In this document: one piece after another, positions 2 through 28,787 of the stretch
Position numbering within the stretch: the stretch's first letter is position 1
How the letters are laid out: each line of letters starts with the position of its first letter
NCBI GenBank assembly: GCA_003217895.1
Contig: QHMS01000259.1
Span: 1-32,178, forward strand
Reading direction: 5' to 3'
Length of the DNA stretch: 32,178 nt
From: Verrucomicrobiota bacterium
GTDB taxonomy: Bacteria; Verrucomicrobiota; Verrucomicrobiia; Chthoniobacterales; UBA10450
Position numbers and translations under genes: made by a program
The notes under the pieces: generated by a model
What the model was told of the DNA's origin: nothing
Databases searched by the model: none
What the model saw: only the letters and a program-made list of their open reading frames with translations

Positions 2-133
2 TCAAAGGCGAAAAAAATTCTTGGCTGGGAACCAAAAGTCCGGTTCCATCAACTTGTGCGAATCATGGTGGACGCGGACATGGATTTGCTCTCGCGGCAA
101 ACGCCGAGAGAACATCTCGGCAAATTGCCGTAG
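2..133 (+). CDS. gmd: GDP-mannose 4,6-dehydratase, C-terminal fragment (truncated by window edge)
   Basis: Frame 2 reads [43 protein letters not shown], matching the C-terminal KAK..LGWxPKV.F..LV.MMVDAD pattern of GDP-mannose dehydratases. Confidence 0.75.
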
Positions 134-172
134 GTAGCGACGGTGCGCTGCACCGCAGAGCGATCTCCCTAC
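130..172. repeat. Inverted-repeat element (class C), GTAGG...CCTAC with internal CGGTGCGCTGCACCG hairpin
   Basis: Direct reading: outer arms GTAGG/CCTAC; inner GGTGC-GCT-GCACC hairpin. Confidence 0.6.
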
Positions 173-1659: not shown

Positions 1660-1721
1660 TTGTAGGGCGTTTCGGTGAAACACCAACTCGGGCGGCGTCC
1701 GCCGCGGCGGACGCGCTACAG
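1660..1721. repeat. Inverted-repeat element (class C) with perfect 20-nt palindrome GCGTCCGCCGCGGCGGACGC
   Basis: TTGTAGGGCGTTTCGGTGAAACACC...GGCGTCCGCCGCGGCGGACGCGCTACAG between tatD start and fabH stop. Confidence 0.7.
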
Positions 1722-6149: not shown

Positions 6150-6215
6150 TTGTAGAGGCGCTTGTGTCAAGCGCCTTCCTTTTAAAGTCGGCGGTTGACA
6201 CAACCGACGGTACAA
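6150..6215. repeat. Inverted-repeat element (class C) with two hairpins GGCGCTTGTGTCAAGCGCC and GGTTGACACAACC
   Basis: Outer TTGTAGAGG...GGTACAA ends; two internal perfect stems. Confidence 0.75.
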
Positions 6216-9858: not shown

Positions 9859-9939
9859 GTCATTCCGAACAAAGTCGACGAATCCCGTGGCAGCACCCTC
9901 ATGGTGCAACGGCAAATCTCCACTTCGCTCGACATGACA
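9859..9939. repeat. Class A element GTCATTCCGAAC...CTCGACATGACA
   Basis: Terminal GTCATTCCGA.../...ATGACA inverted ends with internal GCACC-ctcat-GGTGC hairpin. Confidence 0.7.
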
Positions 9940-9960
9940 AAGGGAGTGTTGTAGAGTGTG

Positions 9961-10028
9961 GGTAAGGCAATGGAGTTTGCCTTCCCCCGCCGGTGCGGGA
10001 GAAAACCGCGTGAGCTAATGACTCCTTC
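9961..10028 (+). ncRNA. Fluoride riboswitch (crcB motif) aptamer
   Basis: GGCAA-TGGAGT-TTGCC stem-loop (9966-9981), AACCGC (10004-10009), GCTAATGACTCCTTC (10014-10028). Loop GGAGT (9972-9976) can form the pseudoknot with ACTCC (10021-10025). Matches the crcB consensus from recall; no covariance search run. Confidence 0.9.
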
Positions 10029-10049
10029 CAAGAAAGAAGGAGTTTTTTT
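10021..10049 (+). terminator. Riboswitch expression platform: intrinsic terminator that also contains the SD
   Basis: ACTCCTTC (10021-10028) and GAAGGAGT (10036-10043) form a perfect 8-bp stem with loop CAAGAAA, followed by a T7 run; the antiporter ATG starts at 10050. Confidence 0.9.
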
Positions 10050-11275
10050 ATGCTCGAAAATATCTGGTTGATCGCTGCGGTTTGGATGGGATTAGCGCTC
10101 ATCGGTAGCTTAGTCTCGATTCGGACGGGAATCTCGGTTGCACTGGTTGAAATTCTGGTGGGCATTGTTGCCGGCAATCTTGCCGTCGGTTTGGAGGGCG
10201 GCACGTTGCATATCGGGATTGCTGCTCCGGGCGCTGGCACGGGACATCTGCATCACGTACTGCAATCAACGGAGTGGACCAACTTTCTCGCCCTGCTTGG
10301 CAGTGGCGTGCTCACCTTTCTCGCTGGAGCAGAAATCGATCCAGTTTCGTTGAAGGCCAATTGGCGGGTGAGCGTTCTGATCGGAGTGCTTTCTTTTGCT
10401 GTCCCATTCGGCTTCGTTTGGTTTGTTGCGCAATTCGTTTTTAGCTGGCCTCTGCACCAGGCGCAAATCGCAGGAATCGCGCTTTCGACAACATCGGTCG
10501 CGGTCGTTTACGCCGTCATGATCGAGGGCGGATTCAGCGATACTGCCATGGGCAAAATGATTCTTGCTGCGTGTTTCATTACTGATTTCGGGACGGTGCT
10601 CGCGCTGGGCATGTTGTTTGCGAACTATAATGTCTGGCTCCTGCTGTTTGTGATCGTGACGTTGATCGTCCTCTGGTTCATGCCGCGCTGGACACAAGCG
10701 ATTATCACGCGCCTCGGCGCAACGCAGGTGAGTGAACCCGAGGTCAAATTCATCTTTTTCGTTCTTTTCTTTCTCGGCGGCCTGGCTACAACAGCCAAAA
10801 GCGAGGCGGTGCTGCCAGCGTATCTTCTTGGTCTTGTTCTTGCCGGCGTATTTCTCCGCGACAAAACGCTGGTCCGGCGCATGCGCAGCATCGCCTTTAC
10901 GGTGTTCACGCCTTTTTACTTTATCAAGGCTGGTCTGTACGTCTCGCTGCCGGCGCTGTGGACGGGACTGCTAGTGATCAGCGTGTTTCTAACGTTGAAA
11001 ATCGTGACTAAAATCGCGGGCGTGTTTCCGCTTGCCCGTTTGCATTACATGAGGATCAAGGAAGCGAGCTACACCACGCTGCTCATGGCCACCGGCCTGA
11101 CATTTTAGTTATCCTGAGTGCGTTTGTGCCCACGCTGATCGCCCAGAAGTTCTTCCAACCCACGGTGGAGATGATGCACGCGTGGGGCCGCCTCTACCGC
11201 AAACGTATGCGGGTGTTGAGCGTGGAAGACATGGTAGACAACGGCGAATTGGAAATTGGTCGTTCTTCACGCTAG
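10050..11275 (+). pseudogene. Cation/proton antiporter (CPA/KefB-like) with internal frameshift/deletion
   Basis: Frame 1: MLENIWLIAAVWMGLALIGSLVSI...SYTTLLMATGLTF* stops at 11106-11108. Homologous reading resumes in another frame from 11108: VILSAFVPTLIAQKFFQPTVEMMHAWGRLYRKRMRVLSVEDMV...* to 11275. Confidence 0.75.
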
Positions 11276-15174: not shown

Positions 15175-17232
15175 ATGAAAACCGAGTGGGACCTTGAGTC
15201 CGCCATTGCCACATACAACGTGGACGGATGGAGCGGGGGTTATTTTACTGTCAATAGCTCCGGCAACGTCGAAGCAAGGCCGTTGCAAGATAACGGTGGC
15301 TCCATCGACATCCTGGCAGTGGTGAATGAGGCGCGCGAGAGAAACCTCGGTTTTCCATTGCTGATTCGGTTTCAGGATTTGCTTCGGCACCGCGTCGAAG
15401 CAATTAACCGCGCATTTCAAAGCGCGATATCTGAGTTTGGTTATCGCAATGAGTATCGAGGCGTTTTTCCGATCAAAGTCAACCAGCTGCGCGAGGTGAT
15501 AGAGGAAATCGTCGATGCAGGAGAACAATTTCATTTTGGCCTCGAAGCGGGCAGCAAACCGGAGCTGGTTGCTGCGCTTGCCATGCAGAAAGACCCTGAA
15601 AGTTTGATCATCTGCAACGGTTACAAAGATCCCGCTTTCATTCGCATCGCGCTGCTTGGTCGCAAACTTGGCAAAAGGGTCATCATCGTCGTCGAAAAGC
15701 TGGAAGAGCTGGAACAGATCATTCGCGCGTCAAAAGAAGTCGGCCTCGAGCCATACATTGGTATTCGCGCTCGCTTGTATAGCAAAGGCTCTGGGAAATG
15801 GTCCCCGAGCGGCGGCGAGAACGCGAAATTCGGCCTCGACACCACCAATCTCGTGGCTGCCAGTCAGATGTTGAAAGAAGCCGGTCTGACTCAGTGCCTA
15901 AAACTCCTTCATTTCCATGTCGGCTCGCAGGTGCCGGACATTTCAACGATCAAACGCGCTGTGCGCGAAGGGGCGCGCTATTACGCAAAGCTTTGCAAAC
16001 TCGGGCATCAACTCGGGTATCTCGATGTCGGCGGCGGTCTCGGCGTGGATTACGATGGATCGCGCAGTGATTTCGATAGCTCGACAAATTATTCTCTCCA
16101 GGAATACGCCAATGACGTGGTCTGGAATATCATGGACGTGTGCGATTCCGAAGGGGTCGCGCATCCCATCATTGTGAGCGAAAGCGGTCGCGCCATTGTC
16201 GCGCACCATTCGGTGCTCGTGTTGGAGGCATTTAGCGCCATCGAAAAAACTGCGCCGAAGCTCAAGGTCGAAGCCGGCGAAAAAGATCACAAACTGGTGG
16301 GCGACATCCTCGACGTAAAACAGCGCTTAAGGCGCGGAAATCGCCTCGAGAGTTTGCACGATATTCAACAGATAAAGGAAGAAGCGCAGCAAACGTTCGA
16401 TCTCGGCCTGCTCGATCTCGAATCGAAGGCGAAAATCGACACCGTTTACTGGCAAGTCGCGCATCAAATTGTAAACATGCATCGCGGCCTGCGTTATGTG
16501 CCCGACGAAGTCAAGAACCTCGAAGTTACCCTGGCCGATCAATTCATTTGCAACTTCTCTGTGTTCCAATCGCTGCTCGATCACTGGGCGCTCGGTCAAC
16601 TTTTCCCGATCATGCCGATCCATCGGCTCACTACGCCGCCAGACCGACACGGCACGATAGTGGACATCACATGCGACTCCGACGGCAAAGTTTCCAAATT
16701 CATTGATCTCCAGGACGTGAAGGAAACGTTGCCGCTCCATCGCATCCCGCCTGGCGAGATGTATTACATCGGCGTGTTCATGGTCGGGGCCTATCAGGAT
16801 ATCATGGGCGACCTCCACAATTTGTTCGGCCGCGTCACCGAGGTGCATGTCTTCCTCGATCCCGACGAAGAATCGGGCTGGTACATCGAGGAAGTGATCG
16901 AGGGCAGCACCATCGGCGAAGTGCTCGCCATGACGCAGTGGGACAAAGTCGAATTAATGCGGCTCCTCAAAGCCCAGGTCGATGCCGCCATCAAAACCGA
17001 TCGACTCAAACCAAACGATGCGATGAAGCTTCTTTCGGACTACGAGCGGTTCCTCCGTTCTGGAGTCGCTGACGTTTCCGGCGCGTGGGAAGCAAACGTT
17101 CCGTGGAACTTGTCATTCCGAGCGAAGTCGAGGAATGGAGCGAGTGGGACAAGCGACATAGACGGTTGCGCCGCGACGGTAGCGGCGAGAGAGTCGGGAG
17201 ACGAACGAGTCAATCTCTCGATGCCAAAATGA
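15175..17232 (+). CDS. speA: Biosynthetic arginine decarboxylase
   Basis: [93 protein letters not shown]. Confidence 0.94.
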
Positions 17233-17233: not shown

Positions 17234-18626
17234 GTATCTTTCTCCAACCCCCATAAAAGACGCATTGCGAAGTAATGCGCCGATCGATGCGGTTCGTCTG
17301 CAGGGCTGGGTGCGGACACGACGTGATTCCAAAGATTTTTCATTCATCGAGCTGAACGATGGCTCGTCATTGCGCAACCTTCAGATCATCGCGCGAAACA
17401 CGCTATCGAATTACGCGGACGTTCAACGGCTTACAACCGGCGCTTCAATTGCCGTGAGCGGCGCATTGGTTGCTTCGCAGGGCAAAGGACAAAAATGGGA
17501 ACTAGTTGCGGACAAAATCGAGGTCATCGGGACTGCGGAAGATTCCTACCCCCTTCAGAAAAAGGGGCACACGCCTGAATTTCTCCGCGAAATCGCTCAT
17601 CTCCGGCCCCGCTCAAATCTGTTTAGCAGCATTCTTCGTGTGCGCAGCCGGCTCGCGTTTGCCGTGCACGAGTTTTTTCAGGACCGCGGCTTCATTTATG
17701 TCCACACGCCCATTATCACCGGCAGCGATTGCGAGGGAGCAGGAGAATTGTTTCGCGTTACGACTCTCGATCCAGCGGCCGCCGAATCGCGAACGACGGA
17801 CGGCGAGATCGATTACAAGAAAGATTTTTTCGCCCGGCCGACTTACTTGACCGTGAGTGGTCAGCTCGAAGCGGAAGCCCTCGCTCTGGCCTTGTCGAAA
17901 GTCTATACGTTCGGCCCGACGTTTCGGGCCGAGAACTCAAACACGTCGCGACATGCGAGCGAATTCTGGATGATCGAGCCGGAGATGGCGTTTTGCGATT
18001 TGAACGGCAACATGACCCTCGCCGAAGAGTTTGTGAAATATCTGATTGCGGATGCCAGAAAGCATTGCCCCGACGAGATGGAACTCTTCGCAAAATTCGT
18101 GGACAAGGAGTTACTCGTGCGAATTGATTTCGTTGTTGAGCGGCCATTCCAACGGATTACCTACAGCGACGCTGTCGATCTTCTCAAGAAAAGCGGCGAG
18201 AAATTCGAGTTCCCGATTGATTACGGGTTAAACCTGCAATCGGAGCACGAGCGCTGGCTCACCGAAAAACATTTCAAATGTCCGGTCACGGTTTTCAATT
18301 TTCCGAAGGAGATTAAGCCGTTCTACATGCGTTTGAACGAGGATGGAAAAACGGTGGCGGCGATGGATTTGCTCGTGCCTGGGATCGGCGAAATCGTCGG
18401 CGGCAGTCAGCGCGAAGAGCGGCTCGAAGTGTTGCAAGAAAACATGCGCCGGCACGATATGGTTCCTGCGGATTACAAATGGTATCTCGATCTTCGCCGC
18501 TATGGCACGGCGCCACATTCCGGGTTCGGCCTCGGCTTCGAACGGATGTTGATGTTCATCACCGGCGTCCCGAATATCCGCGATGTGATCCCCTTCGCGC
18601 GCACGCCGGGCAGCGCTGAGTTCTGA
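17229..18626 (+). CDS. asnS: Asparaginyl-tRNA synthetase
   Basis: [129 protein letters not shown]. Confidence 0.95.
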
Positions 18627-18627
18627 T

Positions 18628-18685
18628 GTAGCGCAGGCGTCCGGCTTGCGGCAAATTTAGAGCGCAAGCCGGAGGCATGCGCTAC
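18628..18685. repeat. Class C-like long hairpin GTAGCGCA..TCCGGCTTGCG / CGCAAGCCGGA..TGCGCTAC
   Basis: Two matched arm blocks (8 + 11 bp) between convergent asnS and the lipoprotein gene. Confidence 0.75.
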
Positions 18686-18689
18686 TTCA

Positions 18690-20847: not shown

Positions 20848-20906
20848 GCTGTCGCGGCGATCTATGACCGCCGAAAATTCCGCGAAAAACGGAGTGCCAC
20901 AGTAGC
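20848..20906. repeat. Decayed class C element containing GGCGATCTATGACCGCC
   Basis: GCTGT...ACAGTAGC ends; GGCG(A)TC-TAT-GACCGCC hairpin. Confidence 0.5.
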
Positions 20907-23445: not shown

Positions 23446-24606
23446 ATGAAAAAAGAACAGGGCTTTTCCACGCGCTCCATTCACGCCGGCCAACAACCGG
23501 ATCCAACTACAGGCGCGGTCATAACGCCGATCTATGCCACGTCAACGTACGTGCAGGAAAGCCCGGGAAAACACAGAGGCTACGATTACGCGCGCTCAAT
23601 CAATCCCACCCGGCTCGCCTACGAAAAGTGCATTGCCGATTTGGAAAGCGGCACGCGCGGATTCGCGTTTGCATCGGGGCTCGCTGGTATGGCGACCGTG
23701 CTGGAGCTGCTCGAAAGCGGTTCGCATATCGTCGCCAGTGACGATCTTTACGGCGGCACGTTCCGATTGTTCGATCGAGTGCGGCGACGCTCTGCGAATC
23801 TTGATTTTAGTTATGTCGATTTGACCGATCCCAAAGATCTCGAGCGCGCAATCAAACCAAATACGCGCATGGTTTGGATCGAAACTCCGAGCAATCCGCT
23901 GCTGAAGCTGATCGATCTGGAAGCGATCGCCAAAATCGCACGCAAGCGCAAAATCATTTCCGTGTCCGACAACACGTTTGCCACTCCCTGGATCCAGCGC
24001 CCAATCGAAACGGGCTTCGATATTGTCGTTCATTCCGCGACGAAATATTTGAATGGGCATTCGGATCTGGTGGGCGGCGTCGTTGTTGTTGGTGAAAACA
24101 AGGAACTCGCTGATCAAATTGCATTTTTGCAAAATTCGGTCGGCGCGATCGCCGGTGCGTTCGATAGTTTTCTTGTTTTACGCAGCTTGAAAACGCTGGC
24201 GCTTCGCATGGAGCGGCATTGCGCCAACGCGCTAGAAATTGCGCGCTGGCTTGAGGAACAGAGCGAAATCAAATCAGTCCATTATCCCGGACTGAAATCG
24301 CACCCACAACACGATCTCGCCCGGCAACAGATGCGCGGCTTTGGAGGAATGGTTACAATTGTTCTGAAAACCGACCTCGCTGGAACGCGGCGTTTTCTCG
24401 AGAACACAGAGTTGTTTGCGCTGGCGGAAAGCCTGGGCGGCGTGGAAAGCCTCGTCAATCATCCCGCGCTGATGACACATGCTTCCGTGCCCGAGGAAAA
24501 ACGCGAAAAACTCGGCGTTACCAATTCACTCGTCAGGTTATCAGTCGGCATCGAAGACGTGCGCGATTTAATCGACGACCTAAAGTTTGCCTTTGAGGCT
24601 ATTTGA
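23446..24606 (+). CDS. Cystathionine gamma-lyase/gamma-synthase family PLP enzyme
   Basis: GFSTRSIHAGQQPDPTTGAVITPIYATSTYVQ, YDYARSINPTR, FASGLAGMATVLELL, VHSATKYLNGHSDLVGG, ESLGGVESLVNHPALMTHASVP. Confidence 0.92.
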   Translation: MKKEQGFSTRSIHAGQQPDPTTGAVITPIYATSTYVQESPGKHRGYDYARSINPTRLAYEKCIADLESGTRGFAFASGLAGMATVLELLESGSHIVASDDLYGGTFRLFDRVRRRSANLDFSYVDLTDPKDLERAIKPNTRMVWIETPSNPLLKLIDLEAIAKIARKRKIISVSDNTFATPWIQRPIETGFDIVVHSATKYLNGHSDLVGGVVVVGENKELADQIAFLQNSVGAIAGAFDSFLVLRSLKTLALRMERHCANALEIARWLEEQSEIKSVHYPGLKSHPQHDLARQQMRGFGGMVTIVLKTDLAGTRRFLENTELFALAESLGGVESLVNHPALMTHASVPEEKREKLGVTNSLVRLSVGIEDVRDLIDDLKFAFEAI

Positions 24607-24607
24607 A

Positions 24608-24657
24608 TTGTAGGGCGGCTGTGCCAGCCGCCGGCGTTTGATACAAACGCCCTACAA
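24608..24657. repeat. Class C element: TTGTAGG / two hairpins / CCTACAA
   Basis: TTGTAGG-[GCGGCTGTGCCAGCCGC]-[CGGCGTTTGATACAAACGC]-CCTACAA: outer stem closing two perfect hairpins. Confidence 0.85.
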
Positions 24658-24691: not shown

Positions 24692-25783
24692 ATGTCCAAC
24701 ACATTCGGCCAGCTCTTTCGCGTCACCACGTTTGGTGAATCGCATGGCGGCGGCATCGGCGTAGTCATCGATGGTTGTCCGCCGAAGATCGACATCTCTG
24801 AAGTCGACATTCAACGAGAGCTGGATCGCCGTCGTCCGGGTCAAAGCAAAATCACGACACAGCGAAAAGAGGAAGACCGATGCGAGATCCTCTCTGGCGT
24901 TTTCGAAGGGAAAACGCTCGGCACTCCTATCGCGATTGTGGTGCGCAATAAAGATGTTCGCTCTGAGGATTACAGCGAGATTGCGCGGAAATTCCGGCCG
25001 TCACACGCCGATTTCACGTATGAGGCCAAATACGGAATTCGCAATTGGCAGGGCGGTGGTCGCGCATCTGCACGCGAAACGATTGGCCGCGTCGCCGCGG
25101 GCGCGATTGCGAAAAAAATATTATTAATGTTCGATCCGGATTTCGAAATCGTCGCCTACGTGACGCAGGTTCATGATATTGTCGCAAAGATTGATCGGGC
25201 GACCGTGAAGATGAAAGACGTGGAGAAAAATACTGTGCGCTGTCCCGACCCTTCGGCAGCTAAACAAATGGTATCGCTGATCCAGCGCGTTCGCGACGAA
25301 GGCGACTCGGTCGGCGGCGTGATTGGATGTGTTGCACGTGGCATCGCGCCCGGGCTCGGCGAGCCTGTTTTCGACAAGCTCGAAGCAGACCTGGCGAAAG
25401 CGATGCTGAGCATACCGGCAACGAAGGGTTTTGAGATCGGCTCCGGGTTTGCAGCGACGCGAATGCGAGGTTCGAAGCATAACGATCCATTTGAAATGCG
25501 CGCCGGGAAAATCCGGACACGGACAAACAATTCCGGCGGCGTGCAGGGCGGAATCAGCAACGGCGAAGATATTTATTTTCGAGTTGCGTTTAAGCCGCCT
25601 GCTACGATCGCGCTTCAGCAGAAAACCGTCACGAACTCAAAGCAGGAAAGCGAGCTCGCGGCGCGCGGACGTCATGATCCGTGCGTTCTTCCTCGAGCAG
25701 TGCCGATAGTGGAAGCAATGGCCGCGCTGGTGCTGTGCGACCACGCGCTTCGGCAAAGAGCGATCGCCATTGCGGAGCGTTGA
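24692..25783 (+). CDS. aroC: Chorismate synthase
   Basis: [107 protein letters not shown]. Confidence 0.96.
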
Positions 25784-25943
25784 AGCGTTGAAAGAGGAAC
25801 GCGTTGTTTGTCGTTCTGAGCGAAGCAAAGAATCTCTGATTATTTCTGTGCTCGCCCCAGCCACAAGCCGCCGTTCAGAGATGTTTCGCTCGGGTCAACA
25901 TGACAGAGGAGAAAGACGCTTTCACGCTTCAACGCTTCAACGG
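25776..25943. repeat. Nested composite: outer AGCGTTGAAGCGTTGAAAG/CTTTCACGCTTCAACGCTTCAACG word arms around an inner class A element (25810-25905)
   Basis: Direct reading; the inner element begins GTCGTTCTGAGCGAAGCAAAGAATCTCTG and ends CAGAGATGTTTCGCTCGGGTCAACATGACA. Confidence 0.75.
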
Positions 25944-27417: not shown

Positions 27418-27563
27418 ACGTCCAACGCTCAACGTCCCAACGTTCAATGCTCGGTCATTCCGAGCGGAGCGAGGAACCGCACACTCGAAGTAGCGGTCAC
27501 ACTAGCCACCTTGAGTGGTGCAGCGGCGAGCGGGTGAGATCCTTCGCTTCGCTCAGGATGACA
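27418..27563. repeat. Word array ACGTCCA-ACGCTCA-ACGTCCCA-ACGTTCA followed by class A element (27454-27563)
   Basis: GTCATTCCGAGCGGAGCGAGGAACC...GATCCTTCGCTTCGCTCAGGATGACA terminal inverted repeat. Confidence 0.8.
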
Positions 27564-27592
27564 AGTGCAGGGCACGCGATGAAATTGCTTTC

Positions 27593-28696
27593 GTGCGGAT
27601 TCTAATTGCCCCAGACAAATTCAAAGGCTCCCTCAACGCGCGCGAGGTGGCCCAAAACATCGCGAAAGGGCTGCGCGACGCGTCGCCGAATGCGAAGATC
27701 GAGATCGTCCCGATGGCCGATGGCGGCGAGGGAACGGCTGAAGCAATTGCCCAGGCGCGTGGCGGTTCTTGGTTGGAATGCAACGCACACGATCCGCTCG
27801 GCCGCGAGATCGACGTGCGTTACGCCTGGATTGAGTCCGGAAGAATCGCCGTGATGGAAATGAGCGAAGCCTCCGGAATGCGACGGCTACCGGAAAACGA
27901 GCGAGATCCGGATCACGCGAGTACGTTCGGTGTGGGTGAGATGACCTTGGATGCGACGAAGCACGGAGCGAAAGAAATCATCATTGGCCTGGGCGGCAGC
28001 GCAACGAATGACGGCGGATTCGGGATGGCGCGCGTTCTGGGTTTTCGATTCTTTGCCCAAAACCAAGACTTATGTGGCGCAGTTTCCGAGCTGGTTCGGC
28101 TCGAACGAATTGAGAGCCCAAAACATTTACTCTTGCCTGAGATTACTGCAGCAGTGGATGTGAAAAATCCATTACTGGGCAAAAATGGCGCGACGCGCGT
28201 GTTCGGTCCGCAGAAAGGCGCAAGTCAGAACGAGCTGGACATTTTGGAACGTGCGCTGACTCGGCTTGCCGACATTGTAACCAAAGAATTTGGTTTTGAC
28301 TATCGCGACGAACCAGGTGCTGGCGCCGCAGGCGGACTCGGCTTCGGCCTGATGAGCTTTTGCGGCGCAAAAGTTCGGCCGGGCTTCGATGTTGTCGCGG
28401 ACGCAGTCGGACTCGAAGCGAAAATCAAAGATGCTGATGTGGTCATTACAGGCGAGGGAAGTCTGGATCGACAGACCCTCGAGGGAAAAACACCGGCGGG
28501 CGTGGCACGGCTGGCACGAAAACTGGACAAACCCGTCTTCGCTTTTGTCGGCCGTGCATCTAGAGATCGAGAAGTGCGCGAGATGTTCGACGGCGTTTGC
28601 GAGAACGCGCAGCGGGGGATGAGTCAGGAAGAAAACATGAAGCGCGCAGGGGAATTTTTGCGTGAGAACGCGCGAGAATTAGTAAAAACATTGTAG
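27593..28696 (+). CDS. Glycerate kinase (GTG start preferred over the ORF-track start at 27515)
   Basis: RILIAPDKFKGSLNAREVAQNIAKGL, VPMADGGEGTAEAI, GLGGSATNDGGFGMARVLG, EPGAGAAGGLGFGLMSFCGA, ITGEGSLDRQTLEGKTPAGVARLA. The ORF N-terminus 27515-27592 is translated class A repeat. Confidence 0.9.
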   Translation: MRILIAPDKFKGSLNAREVAQNIAKGLRDASPNAKIEIVPMADGGEGTAEAIAQARGGSWLECNAHDPLGREIDVRYAWIESGRIAVMEMSEASGMRRLPENERDPDHASTFGVGEMTLDATKHGAKEIIIGLGGSATNDGGFGMARVLGFRFFAQNQDLCGAVSELVRLERIESPKHLLLPEITAAVDVKNPLLGKNGATRVFGPQKGASQNELDILERALTRLADIVTKEFGFDYRDEPGAGAAGGLGFGLMSFCGAKVRPGFDVVADAVGLEAKIKDADVVITGEGSLDRQTLEGKTPAGVARLARKLDKPVFAFVGRASRDREVREMFDGVCENAQRGMSQEENMKRAGEFLRENARELVKTL

Positions 28697-28787
28697 GGCA
28701 ACCGCTTCGGTTGCAGGTTGCCTGCCACTCGCAGGGCCCCCCCGGTTGGCCCCCCGCGCCCGGCGGCCGCGCCGTACTCCTAGCACA
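28691..28787. repeat. Class C element with hairpins CAACCG-CTT-CGGTTG and GCAGG-TTG-CCTGC and a G/C-only tract
   Basis: TTGTAGGG start overlaps the glycerate kinase stop codon; possible distal arm CTCCTAGCACAA. Confidence 0.65.

Follow-up and report, generated by a model that had tools for sequence, protein, structure and literature searches.

A REP doublet between metC and aroC

We found that a 50-bp segment at positions 24608-24657 of a 32,178-nt stretch of verrucomicrobial DNA (the window, meaning the whole stretch that was analysed) is a doublet (REPIN, called an HH dimer by Di Nocera et al.) of REPs from the known GTAG superfamily. Very probably, GTAG-REP REPINs of this kind are non-autonomous mobile repeats of a class that has expanded genus-wide, in which a RAYT (REP-associated tyrosine transposase, an HUH nuclease) reads the tag, the loop and the paired stem, and whose copies decay after insertion. 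The segment reads TTGTAGGGCGGCTGTGCCAGCCGCCGGCGTTTGATACAAACGCCCTACAA. Its left REP consists of GTAG and GGCGGCTG-TGC-CAGCCGCC (24610..24632, plus strand), and its right REP, in minus-strand reading, of GTAG and GGCGTTTG-TAT-CAAACGCC (24633..24655). Each unit has a perfect stem of 8 bp and a loop of 3 nt behind the tetranucleotide GTAG, and the two are mutually inverted with their tags outward and a spacer of 0 nt; the doublet as a whole has no strand. GTAG (or GT[A/G]G) 5' of a short palindrome, by which GTAG REPs are recognised, is thus present in these hairpins.

The doublet is extragenic and lies between co-directional genes. The stop codon of a metC-like gene (cystathionine metabolism, Cys_Met_Meta_PP, 23446-24606) is 2 nt upstream, and aroC (chorismate synthase, 24692-25783) starts 35 nt past its end. 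It is not a full-length IS200/IS605 element, since its 50 bp hold no transposase between the hairpins. Folded as DNA, the segment has a minimum free energy (MFE) of -20.9 kcal/mol, compared to -7.8 (sd 2.0) for shuffled sequences (z -6.6; 0/200 shuffles equally good). This fold is exactly the TTGTAGG-hairpin-hairpin-CCTACAA shape drawn in an initial annotation of the window. That annotation regarded the 'three-way junction' as a separate element class, whereas the shape arises when two inverted REPs with unlike stems fold. The shared outer 'TTGTAGGG/CCCTACAA ends' that it described do recur, because each inverted unit carries a (T/C)TGTAG tag.

All hairpins quoted in that annotation exist where it placed them (6157, 24614, 24633, 6193, 28699, 28713 and 142), one further stem being misquoted. 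The doublet at 6150..6215 (unstranded) contains GTAG-AGGCGCTTG-TGT-CAAGCGCCT (6152-6176, plus strand), a 13-nt spacer and, from our reading of the sequence, a decayed minus-strand partner with the tag GTAC (class GGCGGTTG-TGT). A further doublet, at 1660..1721, had been overlooked; its left unit (plus strand) is GTAG-GGCGTTTC-GGT-GAAACACC with one mismatch, and its right unit (1695-1719, minus strand) is GTAG-c-GCGTCCGCC-GC-GGCGGACGC. At 28691..28728 (unstranded), GTAG-g-GCAACCG-CTT-CGGTTGC (28693-28714, plus strand) stands with a truncated partner; the annotated site 28699-28725 is a decayed or partial member. The stem quoted for 20848-20906 was wrong: the actual letters are GGCGATCTATGACCGCC (20856), belonging to a decayed REP at 20851..20873 (plus strand; CGGCGATC-TAT-GACCGCCG, class CGGCGsTC) whose tag is GTCG, not GTAG. 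The segment at 130..172 (unstranded) is tentatively a decayed or partial member of the GGTAG-GGACssCGC-GCT class, judging from its likeness to REPs in two other loci (L025 and L231).

Several other features were seen in the window. The REP tag TTGTAG (28691-28696) provides the TAG stop codon (28694-28696) of a glycerate kinase gene, and in several relatives the same gene ends with TAG at the same place, followed by REP-like sequence. A different GTAG-ended element at 18624-18689 has 27-nt arms (89% complementary) and a 12-nt spacer (GTAGCGCAGGCGTCCGGCTTGCG...CGCAAGCCGGAGGCATGCGCTAC); sequences resembling it are found at the metC-aroC site of relatives. Several intergenic gaps, both here and in relatives, hold a further dispersed repeat (TTGTCATTCCGAGCGAAGTCGAGGAATC, also as its inverse); in the window it lies at 25808-25836, 27536-27564, 17108-17134 and 9859-9940. 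A fluoride riboswitch (RF01734, 43.2 bits) is located at 9957-10034 (plus strand), upstream of a gene starting at 10050.

Tag and copy number of the repeats

The source genome is a fragmented MAG (92% complete, 4.5% contamination) close to Ca. Udaeobacter. The nearest chorismate synthases in named records are those of Verrucomicrobia soil MAGs and Candidatus Udaeobacter, and identity to the chorismate synthases of nearly all genus mates is 80-90%. In 101 stretches of this genome (875 kb or 32% of the genome, a sample that may not be representative), a tag-blind collection of all perfect hairpins with a stem of at least 7 and a loop of 3-5 yielded 439 hairpins, while 211 are expected by a first-order model. 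GTAG was the most enriched of the 256 tetramers directly 5' of these hairpins (41 cases, 25-fold). Scanning the same 875 kb by tag first gave 131 GTAG+hairpin sites, as against 14-45 for eight control tetramers, and TT or CT stands directly 5' of the tag in 113 of the 131; CT is where a RAYT would be expected to cut a single-stranded REP.

The initial annotation had proposed a covariance-model search, a test of stem covariation and a search for RAYT genes. The covariance model found TGT-loop-class copies in all 35 genus genomes (at least 22-128 per genome; all counts by this model are lower bounds, with 131 candidates scored per genome). GTAG REPs typically occur in many, mostly extragenic copies per genome; the source genome has at least 128 copies of one loop class, and the copy at 24608-24657 is extragenic. 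For two sister genera within the family, the same model found at least 0 and at least 12 copies, and for each of 21 other genomes of the order at least 0-4.

Covariation between copies and decay of orthologs

To keep the covariation test from being circular, sites were taken by tag and loop only (YTGTAG-N8/9-TGY), ignoring pairing. The 132 sites thus collected form 5.48 arm pairs on average, compared to 2.79 with shuffled arms (maximum of 1000 shuffles, 3.16). All seven arm pairs are formed in 71 sites, while five control tags give 0, and exactly one mismatch in seven is found in 22. The 71 fully paired sites, all in one genome, carry 28 different 7-nt arms behind a common TGT/TGC loop. When sites were selected solely by their outer GGCG/CGCC (19 sites), the four inner pairs proved Watson-Crick in 76 of 76 cases with six different inner arms; 5000 shuffles of these sites never gave more than 65 inner pairs. 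Among 39 aligned copies, which were preselected as hairpins so that the counts lean towards pairing, the covariation score is 0.868 (0.242 shuffled), and both sides have changed in 121 cells (mean of the shuffles 39, with none of 500 reaching 121). Covariation is therefore far above that of shuffled sequences: the stems of paralogous copies differ yet remain paired, and stem variants stay complementary as is characteristic of GTAG REPs. The single mismatches of the near-paired copies are 8 A-C and 8 G-T (tag strand). A-C mismatches being as frequent as G-T, there is no hint of selection as RNA.

The metC-aroC gap of the relatives ranges from 7 nt (L132 of genome G007) to 178 nt. A doublet of the 24608-24657 type is found there in three loci (L111, L120 and L126) and, rearranged, in a fourth (L160), and the gaps of other relatives contain other GTAG or unlike hairpin elements, or almost nothing. 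A deletion might conceivably explain the nearly empty site, but several unlike elements are found at this position. Across the four orthologous copies that could be aligned, our own among them, there are 9 broken pair cells, one G-T cell and 0 compensated cells. The broken and uncompensated orthologs, the paired paralogs and the nearly empty site together indicate that pairing is imposed at movement and not maintained in place. The initial annotation had left open selection or a mobilisation constraint on shape; since orthologous copies decay without compensation, the mobilisation constraint is to be preferred over selection in place.

Alternatively, the hairpins might be functional RNA structures (attenuators, mRNA stabilisers or processing sites) selected in place, the covariation then reflecting RNA function. 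A doublet between co-directional genes, here 2 nt past a stop codon, would be transcribed, and an effect on mRNA stability has been hypothesised for REPs of other genomes (PMC3733652). We nevertheless consider this very unlikely, because the orthologous pairs are broken with none compensated, and because the same genes in other species are separated by 7 nt or by unlike elements. Moreover, equal numbers of A-C and G-T mismatches (8 and 8) are what DNA decay, rather than G-U-tolerant RNA selection, would be expected to leave. The segment at 24608-24657 has no Rfam family match, the only match in the window being the fluoride riboswitch at 9957-10034, and its last pair lies directly 5' of CCCTACAAATTT, without a U tract.

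A mutational mechanism that keeps the arms paired, namely template switching between hairpin arms during replication, is less likely still. Quasi-palindrome correction is an established process and would result in perfect stems of drifting sequence. However, the mismatches in the orthologs are left uncorrected, as is the single mismatch in 22 of the 132 tag-and-loop sites, and the conserved tag and loop and the association with RAYTs would have no explanation. Hairpins are common in any genome, and the 211 expected by the first-order model might invite an explanation by chance palindromes of a G+C-rich genome, or by intrinsic terminators. Such an origin can almost be dismissed, because the excess up to the 439 observed carries one tag, fully paired arms never came from the control tags and the copies are numerous genus-wide.

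Unlike partners in doublets

The tags point outward in 27/28 close pairs of the source genome, and in 50 of 54 pairs once relatives are added. Almost all close pairs are heterodimers (49/50), and certain partner sets recur, among them GCAGGCG:GCAGCCG, CCGGCATC:CCGGGATC and CGGCGCTC:CGGCGGTC. In a family-wise permutation of six families with 21 pairs, 1 homodimer was observed while 9.5 were expected (P 4.5e-5); a permutation with the families lumped by loop (1 observed, 2.6 expected) was without power. Homodimers constructed from these units fold to one long perfect hairpin in 50/50 cases, whereas the DNA MFE fold of the real doublets is a clover in 26/50 and an imperfect long hairpin in 24/50. 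The heterodimer rule thus speaks for the three-way junction (clover) and against a single long hairpin, and the three-way shape is the outcome of unlike partners. Only about half of the doublets (26 of 50), and not every one, prefer the clover. A comparison of the close heterodimers with distant, RAYT-flanking homodimers, based on 13 cases, supports the avoidance of palindromes.

RAYT genes and their flanking hairpins

RAYT (NF047646) matches are found in 33 of the 35 genus genomes, often several per genome. The source genome has four separate RAYT genes above the cut-off; a Y1_Tnp match on its contig C221 was rejected as a RAYT because it scores IS200-like and below the cut-off. Free-standing RAYTs usually have GTAG hairpins within about 150 nt at their flanks, with the tags outward. 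A GTAG hairpin lies at most 250 nt away from 39 of 76 RAYT domains (background 0.066), and 13 RAYTs have inverted GTAG hairpins on both sides within this distance, 8 of them with identical arms, the two hairpins being some 500 nt apart. In the source genome, the RAYTs on contigs C43 and C71 have inverted REPs of the same class at both flanks. A RAYT between two inverted same-class REPs, the arrangement that defines a REPtron, therefore occurs in this genus, and the RAYT search proposed by the initial annotation led to RAYT genes with class-matched inverted hairpins.

The RAYT clade predicts the hairpin class. When hairpin class and host gene were used as labels on the RAYT tree, 18 changes were counted (47.8 shuffled), a number that includes the host-gene labels of the RAYTs inside genes described below. 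Single RAYTs are often flanked by different stems of the same loop type, for example CGTCGCCC-TGT and CGCTTCGC-TGT on C71, and one enzyme thus probably accepts several stems. The stem class of 24608-24657 (GGCG[T/C]TTG) flanks a RAYT of a relative (L237 in G029) as GGCGTTTG and GGCGCTTG. In the source genome, the sole GGCGC-like case is a divergent RAYT-like gene on C32, with the ends TTGTAG-GGGCGC and TTGTAG-AGGCGC.

Two genomes, G002 (91% complete) and G005 (68% complete), have at least 51 and at least 62 TGT-loop REP copies, respectively, and no RAYT match at E <= 0.001. Either REPs persist there without a detectable RAYT, or the genomes are incomplete; the G002 copies suggest that persistence without a detectable RAYT can occur.

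RAYTs inside housekeeping genes

Many RAYT matches of the genus fall in very long open frames. Pfam places the RAYT domain within RecG, MetH (at two sites), AlaRS, CarB, Sua5 and an MgsA-type AAA protein. The copies are in recG (L025:1949-4714 on contig C291 of the source genome, L242, L247, L248, L272 and L285), metH (L245, L269-L271, L276 and L279), alaS (L275 and L280), carB (L277, L278, L281-L283, L286 and L288), sua5 (L273 and L274) and the mgsA-type AAA gene (L284). Of the in-gene copies, 23 form one clade (98/88) with the recG, metH and alaS members intermixed, and all 23 retain the HUH histidines and the catalytic tyrosine. The recG insert measures about 640 nt and keeps the reading frame; it occupies a single linker site, where other species have 3-39 nt, and ends with GTAG or GGAG hairpins in inverted orientation.

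Some recG genes carry remnants without the RAYT part, 171 nt in L303 (G027) and 99 nt in L309 (G008), which are in-frame, hairpin-only insertions. The unit of about 213 aa in the recG insert (query 383-601) was also detected, apparently beyond recG, as part of frames of 220-271 aa (G014:C113:8692-9330, G013:C114, G023:C141, G027:C178 and G029:C320), as expected of a mobile unit.

We lean slightly towards the reading that a RAYT-lineage unit, including its tagged hairpins, forms one open frame within recG, metH, alaS, carB and sua5, is catalytically intact and has moved between these hosts in an intein-like manner, and that, in connection with this, the heterodimer rule keeps doublets mobile by preventing a long perfect palindrome. 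Our literature search for RAYTs inside genes found nothing specific, which is not proof of absence; Di Nocera et al. described REPs, not RAYTs, inside genes (PMC3733652).

Discussion

We propose that in single-stranded DNA, for example on the lagging strand, every REP would fold to a short hairpin. A RAYT would then recognise the GTAG tag, the short loop and the mismatch-free stem, cut beside the REP and join the doublet to a new place, where the inserted copy would be under no strong constraint and would decay. If the stem must pair while its inner letters are largely free, mobilised copies would always be paired in many different sequences; because partners nearly always have different stems, no single long perfect palindrome arises. 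At 24608-24657, two separate hairpins closed by GTAG/CTAC are the favoured fold, the three-way junction of the initial annotation. The cutting, the single-stranded substrate and the role of RAYTs as movers of these copies we infer from the biochemistry of TnpAREP (PMC8266576).

The anatomy, the doublets, the RAYT association, the co-evolution and the complementary stem variants are already described for REPs elsewhere. The GTAG REPs of Di Nocera et al. (2013, PMC3733652), which include those of the verrucomicrobium O. terrae, share the tag; they have stems of 5-13 bp, many 2-3-nt loops and families with alternative complementary stem residues. HH dimers predominate among them, heterodimers are preferred in most families, and a possible protection from SbcCD was already noted for this preference. 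Our repeats differ in that they belong to another genus and show many stems behind a shared TGT/TGC loop in one genome. The Group 3 TnpAREP/REP of Stenotrophomonas maltophilia (REPSm, PMC8266576) has the same 23-nt GTAG + 8-bp perfect stem + 3-nt loop. Its loop is GCT, in contrast to TGT/TGC/TAT or others here, and it has been tested biochemically, while the present system is known from sequence. A stem mismatch lowers the activity of the Marinomonas TnpAREP, and likewise that of S. maltophilia; swapping the whole stem in Marinomonas affects cleavage only moderately, and the loop bases are critical for both enzymes (PMC8266576).

The REPINs of Bertels and Rainey (2011, PMC3116915) are the same inverted REP doublets as mobile units with a RAYT in trans. 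A figure legend in that work sets hairpin against 'clover' folds, with the clover drawn as the form that RAYTs would recognise, and our three-way junction matches this clover. However, our doublets have spacers of 0-67 nt and unlike stems, whereas the REPINs of SBW25 have conserved ends and a compensating spacer. Our repeats have in common with the REPtrons of Nunvar et al. (2010, PMC2817692) a RAYT with an inverted REP on either side, a co-evolution of RAYT and REP class over long times, and REP variants that keep complementarity. Unlike those REPtrons, they are found in a verrucomicrobial genus whose genomes each have several RAYT clades, and in which one RAYT lineage lies in-frame in housekeeping genes. 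A literature search for REPs of Udaeobacter found nothing specific, which again does not prove absence. New here are the host genus, the breadth of stems found with a single tag and loop, and the distinction drawn between covariation of paralogs and decay of orthologs.

In vitro tests of how RAYTs choose their repeats have so far covered three systems. As a natural mutagenesis experiment, this genus combines a single tag and loop with dozens of stems and has several RAYT clades, each with its matching class; its orthologous sites make it possible to tell the demands of mobilisation from what is preserved by the host. We predict that pairing and the loop are read while the inner stem letters are free. 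These findings extend RAYT biology to an abundant, uncultured soil group.
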